From Neobacillus nitrireducens (lineage in GTDB: Bacteria > Bacillota > Bacilli > Bacillales > Cytobacillaceae), in assembly GCF_030915405.1 (NCBI RefSeq), contig NZ_CP133262.1:3348001-3412000 (forward strand): a DNA stretch of 64,000 nucleotides. Direction: 5' to 3'. Position 1 is the first letter of the stretch, and each line of letters begins with the position of its first letter. Shown piece after piece: positions 10,398-60,277 of the stretch. The translations under genes were made by a program, and so were the position numbers. Under the pieces are notes generated by a model, which did not search any database, was not told where the DNA came from, and was given only the letters and a program-made list of their open reading frames with translations.

Positions 10398-10403
10398 GTG
10401 AAA

Positions 10404-10557
10404 GAAGGCTGCATTTACCGGTGAGGGGGAAAAAGAGTATGGACGGTAAATGAGAGAAGGCTGCATTTACCGGTAAGAGGGAAAAAGGAGTATCAGCGGT
10501 AAATGAAAGGCGGCTGCACTTACCGAAACCAGGAAAAAGCGGGGCTAACGGTAAATG
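10404..10557. repeat. Three tandem 52-bp hairpin repeats
   Basis: Three imperfect copies with the shared point CTGCA at 10409, 10461 and 10514 (steps 52 and 53). Each holds CATTTACCG (CACTTACCG in copy 3) and, 24-32 bases later, CGGTAAATG, so each copy can fold into a 9-bp hairpin. The purine-rich loops (GAGGGGGAAAAAGAG in copy 1) are similar too. They fill most of the 304-base space between pta and lipL. Function unknown. Confidence 0.8.
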
Positions 10558-10651
10558 AATAGCACATTCTATGGCACAAAAAGGTTCACCCTGTTTAATT
10601 TCACGCGATTTTGATAAAATAAGTCTATCAATTTAGTTAGGAGCCACCCAA

Positions 10652-11563: not shown

Positions 11564-12370
11564 TTATTCCGCGACTTTCTCTAAGTTCCCGTTACGGTCC
11601 ATTTTGAATTTAGTCGCTGGTCTTTCTTCTTCTTCAAATAACACAAGCTTGCGGGCCCGGTTCATGATCTTCATTAAGGTCTCGTAATCTTCTTGAATCG
11701 TTTCGGTATTCTGCTCGAGGCCTTCAATTTTAGCGGACATTTCTTCATTTTGACGCCTAACCTCAGCCAATTCCCTTTTTAATCTTTCATTCTCACTTTT
11801 TAATGCTTCATTTTGCAGATTGGCATGATGGAAGTTTTGCAAGTAAGTAATGACGGAATCAAGCGAAAGTCCAGTTGGATTGGCCTGTCGGTACGTTTGG
11901 ACGGGTGCTTGAACAGGTGCCTGTGCTTGAAGTGGTGCCTGTGCTTGAAGTGGTGCCTGAGTTTGCATAGCAGCTGGTGTTACATAGCTTTCCTCGGCCA
12001 TCTCTGCTGTCATATCCGGCAGATCAAACGTAGCTTCGAGCGGCATTTCAACTTGGACCGGCATCGTATCAAAATCAGGTGCTCCAGTGAGCGGCGGGCT
12101 ATATAATAGCTTTTTCTTGCCGCCTTGATCTTTTCCTAACACTCTTTGTCTTTGTTTTCGTTGCTTTTTGGCCAATTGTAATGCTTTTTCATAGCGGTGG
12201 CGAACGACGGCATTCCATCTGAACCCACAAGCGGCAGAAGTACGATTCAGCTTATCGCCCACTTCTTCAAAAGCATTCAGCTGGGTACTGCCTTCTCTTA
12301 CGTGCCTTAGGACAGTCTCAGCTAAAAGCAAATCATTCTCATCTGTCCATGCATCTTGACGAACTTTCAT
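11564..12370 (-). CDS. rsfA: Prespore-specific regulator RsfA (Myb-like)
   Basis: A 268-residue regulator. The N-terminal ~70 residues are Myb/SANT-like: [19 protein letters not shown], then [20 protein letters not shown] basic stretch ([14 protein letters not shown]) follows. The middle is low-complexity with a short tandem repeat [11 protein letters not shown], seen in the DNA as an 18-bp repeat around 11911-11960. The C-terminal ~90 residues form a coiled coil ([19 protein letters not shown]). RsfA tunes sigma-F-dependent genes in the B. subtilis forespore. The start is ATG with GGGAG upstream. The QAQAP repeat number probably varies between strains. Confidence 0.9.
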
Positions 12371-29676: not shown

Positions 29677-29729
29677 TTAATAGTTTTCAAGTTTAAAAGA
29701 CCACGAGGATTATCCATATATTGGCTAAT

Positions 29730-29844
29730 TGTACAAAACACGTTGATTTTTGTACAAAACAATTAAAAAAATACACAAAACCTATTAAGAATTGAACAAA
29801 ACTTGGTGAAATTTGCATAAAACATCTTTGAAATTCAACAAAAG
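29730..29844. repeat. Array of six 10-bp motifs at exact 21-bp period (TGTACAAAAC type)
   Basis: Units start at 29730, 29751, 29772, 29793, 29814 and 29835: TGTACAAAAC, TGTACAAAAC, TACACAAAAC, TGAACAAAAC, TGCATAAAAC, TCAACAAAAG. The 11-base spacers differ. Preceded by ATTGGCTAAT. It fills most of the space between the thiolase and hbd genes. Confidence 0.9.
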
Positions 29845-40101: not shown

Positions 40102-40171
40102 ATTTTTTGATGTAAAATCAACAAGCCAGTTTCACATAATTACCGGTATGGTTTTCCAGATATTGTCTAAT

Positions 40172-40265
40172 TGTACAAAACCCCTCAAAAAATGAACAAA
40201 AGTATATAAAAATGGTACAAAACGATTCGAAAAATGAACAAAAGGACCCCGAAATTGTACAAAAC
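40172..40265. repeat. Array of five 10-bp motifs at exact 21-bp period (TGTACAAAAC type)
   Basis: Units at 40172, 40193, 40214, 40235 and 40256: TGTACAAAAC, TGAACAAAAG, GGTACAAAAC, TGAACAAAAG, TGTACAAAAC. Preceded by ATTGTCTAAT. It lies between the pyrG terminator and the ywjG terminator. Confidence 0.9.
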
Positions 40266-46888: not shown

Positions 46889-46984
46889 GGGTGCAGTGTG
46901 TTTTTAGTATTTCAGTACTTGTTTTTGATAGGTGCTTTATATAACTCTGTTTCGAATGATTCAGGGCGGAAGGAGATGAAAAGA

Positions 46985-48041: not shown

Positions 48042-48155
48042 TTGGCGGAATAAACATGGCATTTGGCGGAATTCCAGTGAGGTTTGGCGGAATAAACATG
48101 GCATTCGGCGGAATAAATAACGAAGTTGGCGGAATTCCTTTCAGATCCGGCAGAA
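48042..48155. repeat. Array of six GGCGGAA motifs at exact 21-bp period
   Basis: GGCGGAA (last copy GGCAGAA) at 48044, 48065, 48086, 48107, 48128 and 48149. Most copies are preceded by TT and followed by TAAACATGGCA or TTCC. The motif differs from the TGTACAAAAC arrays, but the spacing is the same. It occupies the 308-base space between tdk and the lipoprotein gene. Confidence 0.9.
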
Positions 48156-48239
48156 TCATGTCTAGGAAATAGGAACTTGGAAAGATTTCACTCGTTCTGT
48201 TGCGAGGAGTCCGGGCATGATAGTAATGGGAGGTGTAAG

Positions 48240-53826: not shown

Positions 53827-53862
53827 CACCAGGTTCCCCGACGAGGGGACCGGGTGTTTTTT
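53824..53862 (+). terminator. Terminator after sua5
   Basis: AACACC-GGT-CCCC / GGGG-CC-GGTGTT stem and a six-T run. Confidence 0.85.
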
Positions 53863-53949
53863 AGTGTCAGGCACCAACGAGGCGGTAGCGAATTTTTTCG
53901 GTGTCAGACACCAACTTTGGCGTGAGTGAATTAATCGGTGTCAGGCACT
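53863..53949. repeat. Three GGTGTCAGGCACC units in 37-bp tandem
   Basis: AGTGTCAGGCACC, GGTGTCAGACACC and GGTGTCAGGCACT at 53863, 53900 and 53937, exactly 37 bases apart. The intervening 24 bases of the first two units are also alike (AAC..GGCG..AG.GAATT..TC). It lies between the sua5 terminator and mntP. Confidence 0.88.
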
Positions 53950-58795: not shown

Positions 58796-59009
58796 GTTGG
58801 TTTTTATTAAAATAGGTCATTGTCTTTTGGAAATTTAATTTGAAACCATCCATTTTTGAAAAAATAAAAGAAATCGCTTCAGAACGCTGGAAAAATTTAT
58901 AGAAAGATACTTATTCTTTACTGGAATAGGGTTCCTTTTTAAAAAAAAGAGAATGATCAAGAGATAAAAAAGCAAAAACAGGAGTTTTATTTGGTAAAAT
59001 TTGTCTAAT

Positions 59010-59102
59010 TGTACAAAACACCTTGAAAAGTGAACAAAACTATTTAGAAATTGAACAAAACGATTAAAAAATGAACAAAACCTGTTTAAAAGTGAACAAA
59101 AC
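59010..59102. repeat. Array of five TGAACAAAAC motifs at 21-bp period
   Basis: TGTACAAAAC at 59010, then TGAACAAAAC at 59031, 59052, 59072 and 59093; one step is 20 bases, the rest 21. A degenerate sixth copy may follow at 59114. Preceded by TTGTCTAAT. It is the only structure I see in the 505-base space between upp and the NERD gene, apart from the upp terminator. Confidence 0.9.
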
Positions 59103-59257: not shown

Positions 59258-60277
59258 ATGGTTGTTTTAGAATTACAATTACCAATTCAAGCTTATCAAT
59301 GTATGGCGTTGCTGCGTAGATTGAAGAAAAGTCATCCAATCAGAACGACAGTCGAACGCGACCTGCGATCGTGGCTGAAAGGATACTACGGGGAGAAGGA
59401 ATGCAGCTATTTTCTGTCGCTTTTGCCTGAAGATCAATATTACATTTTTCATGGCCTGCGGCTAACCGACAAGAAGGTATTCCAAATGGATCTGGTACTC
59501 GTTTCACAGAGATTTATCTTCATGGCAGAAATCAAAAATCTATCGAAGAAATTGATTTTTAACAAAGAAACCAATCATGTAACAAAGGAATTTAATAATG
59601 AAGAAGAAGGCATTTCGAATCCAATTCTTCAGGTGAAAAGGCAGAAACTGCAATTCGTAAATTGGCTCAGGAAGAAGCAAATGCTGGGTTTACCAATTGA
59701 AAAGGCGGTCATCATCAGTAAACCAACGACGAAAGTGGAAACAACTCCAGACAATCAGCAAATTTTCAATGAGTTGATTTATGCTGAGTCGCTTCTGGAT
59801 AAGTTGGAAGAACTGGAAGCCAGGTATCAAAAGCCTTTGTTTACGAAAAGAAAAACGAATCAATTAGTGGACCTCCTTTTAAGCCACCATCAAACTCCTA
59901 TTCCGGATATCCCCCTATCGTACAAATTATCCAAGTCTGACATAATTTCAGGAGTGTTTTGCCCTAATTCTCAAACAGGTAACATGGAATTTTACTCAGC
60001 AAAGTGGCACTGCCCCGATTGCGGATATTCCTCTAAAACTGCCTTTTTTCAGACAGTCGATGATTATTTCCTCTTGTTGGGACCGACGATTACCAGGAAG
60101 CAGTTTGCAGAGTTTTTGTGTATCGGTTCTAGTTCCGTAGCGGGGCATCAACTTCGATCGCTCAACCTCACGTCATCAGGCTCCAAACGAGGAACAAACT
60201 ACACTCTTCCCAAAAATCAACTCCTGTGCCCACTCGACGAAAAGGGAATCAACGCCTATACGATTCCGACCAGGTAA
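59258..60277 (+). CDS. NERD-domain protein
   Basis: A 339-residue protein with a nuclease-related domain (NERD) at residues ~30-170: TTVERDLRSWLKGYYGEKEC, then QMDLVLVSQRFIFMAEIKNL. The Asp and the Glu-Ile-Lys are the putative catalytic residues of a PD-(D/E)XK-like fold. The C-terminus has a zinc-ribbon-like pair FCPNSQ / HCPDCGY (near 235-258) and a basic tail. Usual roles are unknown; DNA processing is suggested by the fold. It has GAGGTGTG 5-8 bases upstream and is not part of the conserved B. subtilis order. Confidence 0.8.
   Translation: MVVLELQLPIQAYQCMALLRRLKKSHPIRTTVERDLRSWLKGYYGEKECSYFLSLLPEDQYYIFHGLRLTDKKVFQMDLVLVSQRFIFMAEIKNLSKKLIFNKETNHVTKEFNNEEEGISNPILQVKRQKLQFVNWLRKKQMLGLPIEKAVIISKPTTKVETTPDNQQIFNELIYAESLLDKLEELEARYQKPLFTKRKTNQLVDLLLSHHQTPIPDIPLSYKLSKSDIISGVFCPNSQTGNMEFYSAKWHCPDCGYSSKTAFFQTVDDYFLLLGPTITRKQFAEFLCIGSSSVAGHQLRSLNLTSSGSKRGTNYTLPKNQLLCPLDEKGINAYTIPTR

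Follow-up and report, generated by a model that had tools for sequence, protein, structure and literature searches.

We have found that short words, directly repeated with a period of 21 bp, form arrays between ordinary genes in a 64,000-nucleotide stretch of a bacterial chromosome (referred to here as the window, G000:C1:3348001-3412000), elsewhere in the same genome and in related bacteria. Judged from sequence, these arrays may represent phased, iteron-like platforms of double-stranded DNA for one or more putative binding or bending proteins, a reading to which we assign a probability of roughly 0.4. The own genome (G000) is 5.15 Mb long and consists of a single contig; G-numbers designate genomes (G000 and its relatives) and L-numbers stretches of DNA. 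The arrays are named after the word that they repeat: class 1 (TG[TA]ACAAAAC), class 2 (GGCGGAAT) and class 4 (TTCGC[TC]CAT).

The preliminary description of the window had reported six copies at a strict 21-bp period in the first array (Table 1), which was borne out, the last two copies being the variants TGCATAAAAC and TCAACAAAAG. Two further arrays of the same word had been listed there; the second indeed keeps strict 21-bp steps, while strictness fails in the third, which contains one step of 20 bp. A fourth array, absent from that description, has the same period as the other three and a different word. The first array is flanked by genes for acetyl-CoA acetyltransferase and 3-hydroxybutyryl-CoA dehydrogenase (NCBIfam names), and the second sits past a hairpin and a T run which, judged by eye, resemble the pyrG terminator. 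All nameable neighbours of the window arrays are ordinary genes (the above two and those for CTP synthase, thymidine kinase and uracil phosphoribosyltransferase); for three of the eight scanned proteins beside these arrays no match exceeded the curated cut-off. The phased pattern of three copies (at most 2 mismatches) was matched 10 times in the window, against 0.00 matches expected from shuffles, so that equal phasing in shuffled sequence, named beforehand as a finding that would speak against the array, was not seen.

Table 1. Positions of the arrays and their lead-ins (window coordinates; stretch labels for arrays of other families)
Feature	Position	Strand	Description
Lead-in of first array, TATTGGCTAAT	29719..29729	+	read directly in the sequence
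First array	29730..29844	+	six 10-bp TG[TA]ACAAAAC words and variants in exact 21-bp steps; copies start at 29730, 29751, 29772, 29793, 29814 and 29835
Lead-in of second array, TATTGTCTAAT	40161..40171	+	sequence reading
Second array	40172..40265	+	five words, 21-bp steps, downstream of pyrG
Fourth array	48044..48156	+	six GGCGGAAT words (final one GGCAGAAT), 21-bp steps, downstream of thymidine kinase
Lead-in of third array, TTTGTCTAAT	59000..59009	+	sequence reading
Third array	59010..59102	+	five words, steps of 21, 21, 20 and 21, downstream of upp (uracil phosphoribosyltransferase)
Other-family arrays, 21 bp	L391, L401, L402, L407, L422, L425		
Other-family arrays, 20 bp	L393, L421		

Several other features of the window were recorded. 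The protein encoded at 59258-60277, next to the third array, matches a methylation-associated defence kinase model weakly and below the cut-off. An L31-Firmicutes ribosomal protein leader (Rfam RF03156) lies at 46945-46975, and a 52-bp unit is present in about three tandem copies, apparently intergenic, at 10399-10559. Another periodic family, with repeats of about 37 bp around the palindrome GGTGTCAGGCACC / GTGTCTGACACC, occupies positions 53857-53948 and was also found in a genome of another family (L428:9060-9240 and 11751-11924).

The genome-wide search proposed in the preliminary description bore out the phasing of the word: the TNNACAAAA triple at 21-bp phasing gave 12 exact matches on one strand, and none on the other strand or in the reversed control. 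Across the genome, pairs of the GGCGGAAT word (at most 2 mismatches) were found 118 times in forward and 9 times in reverse orientation (control, 2 and 0), and pairs of TTCGCNCAT 38 and 44 times, respectively (0 in controls), spanning 0.1 to 4.5 Mb. When 1.208 Mb of the own genome was scanned for periodic lags without any preset motif, 84 hits emerged, 52 of them at lag 21, in a sample of 61 stretches of which 11 were the window or had been chosen for arrays, with some of the 52 hits and many of the others being coding; the scan also brought out a further word, AATTCGCTCATTG. Among the noncoding hits (n=20) in the 50 stretches not picked for arrays (L141-L190), 8 were at lag 21 and 6 at lag 42. 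Within the same 1.208 Mb, a sample partly selected for arrays, 85 of the 98 successive distances of up to 130 bp between GGCGGAA words were 21 (the next smallest being 42), as were 21 of 44 for a looser class 1 pattern, and all 27 for TTCGC[TC]CAT were 21 or 42.

The typical array thus described has 8-15 conserved and at least 6 free positions per period of 21. According to simple ORF calling, 27 array places lie between longer ORFs, with neighbour genes oriented in all possible ways; some of these places are overlapped by short ORFs, at most 184 codons long. The own genome uses at least four dialects, namely TG[TA]ACAAAAC, GGCGGAAT, TTCGCTCATTG and one looser array of the TTTACGAAA type. A higher-order repeat was observed as well: GGCGGAAT sub-arrays recur every 190-192 bp, about six times at L132:5755-6820 (own genome 3869755-3870820) and about three times at L134:6165-6670 (own genome 3914165-3914670).

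Class 1 and 2 arrays hold one strand regardless of the orientation of the flanking genes. Their exact matches in the own genome lie between 3377700 and 4142300, all on the + strand and on one chromosome arm, 0.15-0.92 Mb from dnaA (the arms were defined by locating dnaA and taking the terminus as opposite). Because of this uniformity a polarity set by replication was first suspected. A replication-oriented (KOPS-like) signal, which would tie one strand to the direction of the fork on both arms, was rejected as a rule: class 4 arrays occur on both strands of both arms, and for classes 1 and 2 complete relatives provide exceptions (G146 5997518 +, G122 5939669-5939690 - and G151 444148 -).

Comparison with relatives revealed that the place and the period of the arrays are shared more widely than their words. 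The exact GGCGGAAT triple was present in 18 of 193 family genomes and the TGNACAAAA triple in 10 of 193 (own genome included), all of the same genus; the named N. mesonae, N. novalis and N. niacini records, which have the same arrays as G114, G123 and G108, identify it as Neobacillus. Many genomes without exact triples carry other words at the same place. Among 61 genomes of the genus, pyrG was found in 60 and hbd in 59, and the gap was read in 50 genomes for pyrG and in 30 plus three more for hbd. Downstream of pyrG the lag-21 score reached at least 0.57, a cut picked after the scores were known, in 28 of 50 species, with many different words; in the remaining 22 gaps only G139 attained 0.57 at any lag from 17 to 25 (0.60 at lag 20). 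The words at the pyrG and hbd gaps include TGTACAAAAC, GCACAAAAC, TAGACAAAAC, TAGCCAAAAC, TGTCCAAA, AGTCCAAAAC, ATGAGCCAATC, ATGATCCAATG, GGCACATAA, GGCGAGTAAA, ACTGTCGGATAA, ACTTGCGGATAA, TGGCGGATAA and CTCTCGGATAA, and in G151 the two orthologous gaps differ in word. Dialects therefore turn over at orthologous sites. In G106 neither gap contains an array, which is a clean absence; since arrays are missing there and fall below the cut in 22 of 50 pyrG gaps, they are dispensable in these places.

The shared lead-in that had been pointed out for the window arrays also recurs: at the pyrG gap 16 of 50 species carry [AT]TG[TG]CTAA in exact form, and, close variants counted, such a lead-in stands before CAAA-type words in 21 of 50. 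The other finding named beforehand as adverse, free spacing in related genomes, was likewise not encountered; that spacing is not free is shown by the successive distances in the 1.208-Mb sample of the own genome. Relatives contributed 20 stretches, 12 picked for holding arrays or their orthologues, and 45 of the 48 periodic hits in them were at 21, a few of the 45 looking coding. Downstream of pyrG in G123 (L430) two arrays follow each other, each with its own ATGTCTAAA lead-in; the words of the first are worn and those of the second mostly intact, as if a new array had been placed beside a dying one. A minimal element, consisting of the lead-in and one or two words only, was seen at the pyrG gap in L444 (G146), L219 (G133) and L433 (G156).

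Arrays of this build are not confined to the genus. In 40 genomes hand-picked from 120, mostly one per family, noncoding arrays were found in 8 of the 40 pyrG stretches, all of which come from further genera and families within the order (Table 1), those in L401 and L402 being weak (6-8 and 4 columns at 80%, respectively). The noncoding hits in these stretches numbered 8 at lag 21, 3 at 20, 3 at 42, 2 at 40 and 13 at other lags, after a filter which dropped arrays under any ORF of at least 150 codons and thereby removed the L134 arrays and some others. A scan of named genomes listed at least 80 matches; among these, 18, mostly from Bacillales, were laid out, of which 10 were array-like, including Alkalibacillus, Rummeliibacillus (with some 19- or 20-bp steps) and several Neobacillus, and 8 were near-identical or coding-like repeats.

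A sign of constraint came from the orthologous units of the GGCGGAAT class. Out of the 12 arrays of the whole comparison, to which the TG[TA]ACAAAAC figures below also belong, those with flanks aligned on both sides were used (11 for G136, 7 for G142 and 2 for G106). The word differed at 8/320 positions (2.5%) in G136, 6/232 (2.6%) in G142 and 1/88 (1.1%) in G106, and the spacer at 53/520 (10.2%), 71/367 (19.3%) and 33/143 (23.1%), respectively (Fisher p 1.4e-5, 9e-11 and 6e-7); the noncoding flanks differed at 145/2728 (5.3%), 81/860 (9.4%) and 78/603 (12.9%). With a change of 1-3% in the word and of 10-23%, above that of the flanks, in the spacer, the GGCGGAAT word is thus protected and the spacer is more diverged than its surroundings. 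This agrees with the earlier view that the arrays are no simple tandem duplication, word and spacing being kept and the spacer not.

The word originally reported fared differently. Its array is real, but TG[TA]ACAAAAC is one dialect among many and in this lineage is no better protected than its spacer (13/220 against 8/240 for G136, and 23/88 against 21/97 for G142). In other species (G149, G108 and G156) the class is nearly uniform. It appears from these comparisons that the classes may be live and decaying ones, and the TG[TA]ACAAAAC arrays of the window look like decaying relics.

Orthologous units compared with G136 differ by scattered point substitutions and the spacers have not been swapped out, which speaks against whole-unit gene conversion as the source of word uniformity. 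The L134 arrays of G142 present another picture, neighbouring units differing at many spacer positions; this may reflect either an exchange of units or an alignment that picked up a paralogous sub-array. A change of word with kept spacers was firm in one of eight pairs. At the hbd gap of G123 and G129 spacer identity is 0.89 unit for unit, a score equalled by 1 of 120 unit orders, and word identity is 0.80: all five units of G123 read TAGCCAAAA, and the words of G129 read, before AAAA, TATAC, TATAC, TAGAC, TGAAC and TAAAC. The other pairs, whose words differ too, were weaker or negative, as good a score being given by 1/24 (G122/G119), 2/24 (G122/G135), 5/24 (G108/G135), 17/24 (G122/G143), 11/120 (G149/G135), 10/120 (G000/G142) and 19/120 (G136/G142) unit orders. 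Rewriting of the word in place is therefore a single firm case and no rule. The pyrG array of G142 now has GGCACGTAA, or a word near it, in four of five units and contains two 20-bp steps.

These data bear on the main rival of the platform reading, namely that the arrays are a selfish or neutral satellite, expanding and contracting through slippage and inter-unit recombination, propagated by rare copying, devoid of cellular function, whose word is simply the homology that recombines. We consider this possible, if on the unlikely side. Whole-unit indels (21 bp in G136; 42 bp and 21 bp in G142), the sub-arrays repeated about 190 bp apart, near-identical units in L165, the lead-ins with one or two words in G133, G146 and G156, the clean absence in G106 and the lack of word protection in class 1 are all in its favour, as are the many spacer differences between the L134 units of G142, which unit exchange would give. 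On the other hand, point substitution has largely spared the GGCGGAAT word in orthologous units, whose spacers show about twice the difference of the noncoding flanks, spacers inside arrays are mostly not homogenised, and in G123/G129 the word changed and the spacers were kept. Moreover, slippage would not predict that the period stays at 21 or 20 from family to family. If the arrays are selfish, they would constitute an unusual bacterial satellite, in which the word rather than the spacer is kept in at least one class.

The platform reading draws in addition on the geometry of the unit. Among 27 arrays, covering about two dozen dialects, 22 showed the strongest AA/TT harmonic at half the period, and the half-period share averaged 0.32, against 0.15 in column permutations that keep dinucleotides (Stouffer p 5e-10, the arrays and dialects being not fully independent). 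In the background the half-period harmonic led in 156 of 728 noncoding windows and was the commonest leader there too. Predicted curvature, calculated with wedge parameters taken from general knowledge, exceeded the 90th percentile of the 728 background windows in 19 of 32 arrays, and the three TG[TA]ACAAAAC arrays of the window ranked at 0.99-1.00; over column permutations the excess was weak (p 0.005 over 21 dialects and 0.001 over 29 arrays). Intrinsic curvature as the function of the arrays was rejected, as most of the signal follows from any 21-bp period.

An action at the RNA level, in which the array would work within transcripts, e.g. as a repeated protein-binding tract or a sponge, is improbable. 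Repeated short RNA sites are a known means to titrate proteins, and the first array, lying between two same-strand genes, may be transcribed. However, eight of the nine strands folded no better than shuffles (z +0.10 to +1.61), the exception being the + strand of the GGCGGAAT array of the window, which folds somewhat better (z -1.76, reached by 11/200 shuffles). In addition, the strand on which class 1 and 2 arrays lie bears no relation to that of the genes, and it is not obvious what a period of two helical turns would mean in RNA. A 4-bp hairpin can be drawn from the GGCGGAAT unit; this candidate was rejected, the -3 base breaking it in many units (by eye).

Still less probable is a signal of the DNA-uptake type, i.e. 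a word for self-recognition that differs by species and has helically spaced AT tracts. Most dialects do combine a core word with AA/TT steps about one turn apart, and dialects do vary between species, but several dialects coexist within one genome and the words stand in phased arrays (the 55 occurrences of TTCGC[TC]CAT in the sample include 27 steps of 21 or 42).

That the arrays encode a repeated seven-residue peptide, the alternative raised in the preliminary description, is very improbable: 21 equals 7 x 3, 23 of 26 arrays have at least one frame free of stops and ORFs of up to 184 aa lie over some arrays, yet in classes 1 and 2 every frame is interrupted by stops (in at least 3/21 and at least 4/65 distinct units, respectively), arrays of period 20 exist in other genera, two of them with stops in all six frames, and 20-bp steps occur inside arrays. 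In class 4 one frame has a stop in 0/16 distinct units, which is compatible with coding in that class. The class 4 array at L150:10704-10970 leaves open a frame of NERIxxx heptads, 88 aa long; NERIxxx-type ORFs over class 4 arrays may be annotated as proteins, probably spuriously.

A phage origin was also considered and rejected. The three exact patterns matched 12, 0 and 18 viral contigs, and 27 of these 30 matches lie within a stop-free frame of at least 146 codons; the remainder are near-identical units (L461 and L464) and an A+T-rich repeat (L463).

Taken together, the two-turn phasing, the asymmetric word, the free bases, the weak RNA signal and the absence of a coding frame in classes 1 and 2 point to double-stranded DNA that would be read by a protein from one face. 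A protein on one face of the DNA had been suggested from the window, and fits both the two-turn period and the recurrence of AA/TT once per turn. As the unit spans two helical turns, all sites fall on the same side of the helix, which leaves neighbouring units open to cooperative occupation. In the platform that we propose, each 21-bp unit would be one asymmetric recognition site, comprising a core word with AA/TT steps about one turn apart and, after it, about 6 bp of indifferent sequence. We infer that a protein would bind adjacent units in a cooperative manner and thereby curve the DNA, in the way of initiators on plasmid iterons. From species to species, and also among the arrays of a single genome, the word recognised would drift, presumably alongside its binding protein, and arrays that have lost their binder would decay, as the TG[TA]ACAAAAC arrays of the window are apparently doing in this species group. 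As for the purpose of such platforms, local chromosome organisation or the insulation of gene borders is our guess.

Several observations count against the platform, among them the lack of word protection in the TG[TA]ACAAAAC class, the weakness of the curvature excess, the folding of the + strand of the GGCGGAAT array of the window, the pyrG and hbd gaps in which arrays are missing or score low, and the single firm case of a changed word with kept spacers. Several dialects per genome would need either several binders or one tolerant binder. Furthermore, the AA/TT rule fails in two arrays of GGCGGAAT, the very class with the protected word, and in three others (the TTGCGGATAA array of G144 and those in L391 and L401).

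We also put forward, tentatively and as rather doubtful, the broader view that Bacillales possess an undescribed phase-locked element, whose geometry (one site per two turns, AT steps once per turn) is conserved and whose word is exchangeable, words being rewritten in all units while the spacers stay. An exchangeable word, if true, would be the trace left by a chromosome-binding system that reads sequence and evolves fast, with dynamics comparable to those of eukaryotic satellite DNA and its binding proteins. If the arrays are platforms, a large group of common soil bacteria would have a system that organises the chromosome or acts at gene borders and whose target code evolves rapidly, and repeated sites and their reader would offer a directly testable case of co-evolution in bacteria. 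Such a system could easily go unnoticed, because each genome uses other words and only the two-turn period shows.

The preliminary description knew of no element of this form, and no description of such arrays was found in open-access PMC papers. CRISPR arrays consist of identical repeats of some 20-50 bp and unique spacers of similar length; this identity was rejected, since typically 8-15 of 21 columns are conserved here and the orthologous spacers, compared with G136, are point-mutated and not replaced. A REP/BIME palindrome was rejected on the folding results given above; most consensus words are non-palindromic by eye, TGTACA being palindromic. The uptake words of Haemophilus (USS) and Neisseria (DUS) are scattered single words in very many copies, with one dialect per species and, in USS, AT tracts at helical spacing. 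The arrays share with them the species dialects and, with USS, the helical spacing of AT tracts, and differ in being phased and in having several dialects per genome.

Two families of intergenic repeats are similar in appearance. STAR elements of staphylococci (PMC3532100) have a 14-bp GC-rich consensus, T(G/A/T)TGTTG(G/T)GGCCC(C/A), whose copies stand at least 40 bp apart. They resemble the arrays as intergenic direct repeats with a short conserved core, intervening sequence, variable copy number and no known function; in contrast to them, the arrays have a 21-bp period, 6-11 freer bases and a word varying between and within species, and their identification as STAR elements was rejected on the words and period, which differ from those given in PMC3532100. 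The TAACTGA direct repeats of Beggiatoaceae, Cyanobacteria and Bacteroidetes (PMC4679880) are a fixed heptamer with a proposed role in translational control, located mostly just upstream of start codons in the genome studied. Like the arrays, they are abundant intergenic direct repeats of a short word; unlike TAACTGA, the arrays have many contexts, many words and a two-turn period.

By their build, the arrays may be called iteron-like, which is not a claim of membership; no initiator family was matched among the 8 proteins scanned beside the window arrays. Plasmid iterons are direct repeats bound by replication initiators. A directly repeated asymmetric core at a helical-turn period, as in iterons, was found here; in both, the core is conserved, a gap is free and the period comes close to two turns. 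Unlike plasmid iterons, the arrays are spread by the dozen over the chromosome, between ordinary genes, and in several dialects per genome.
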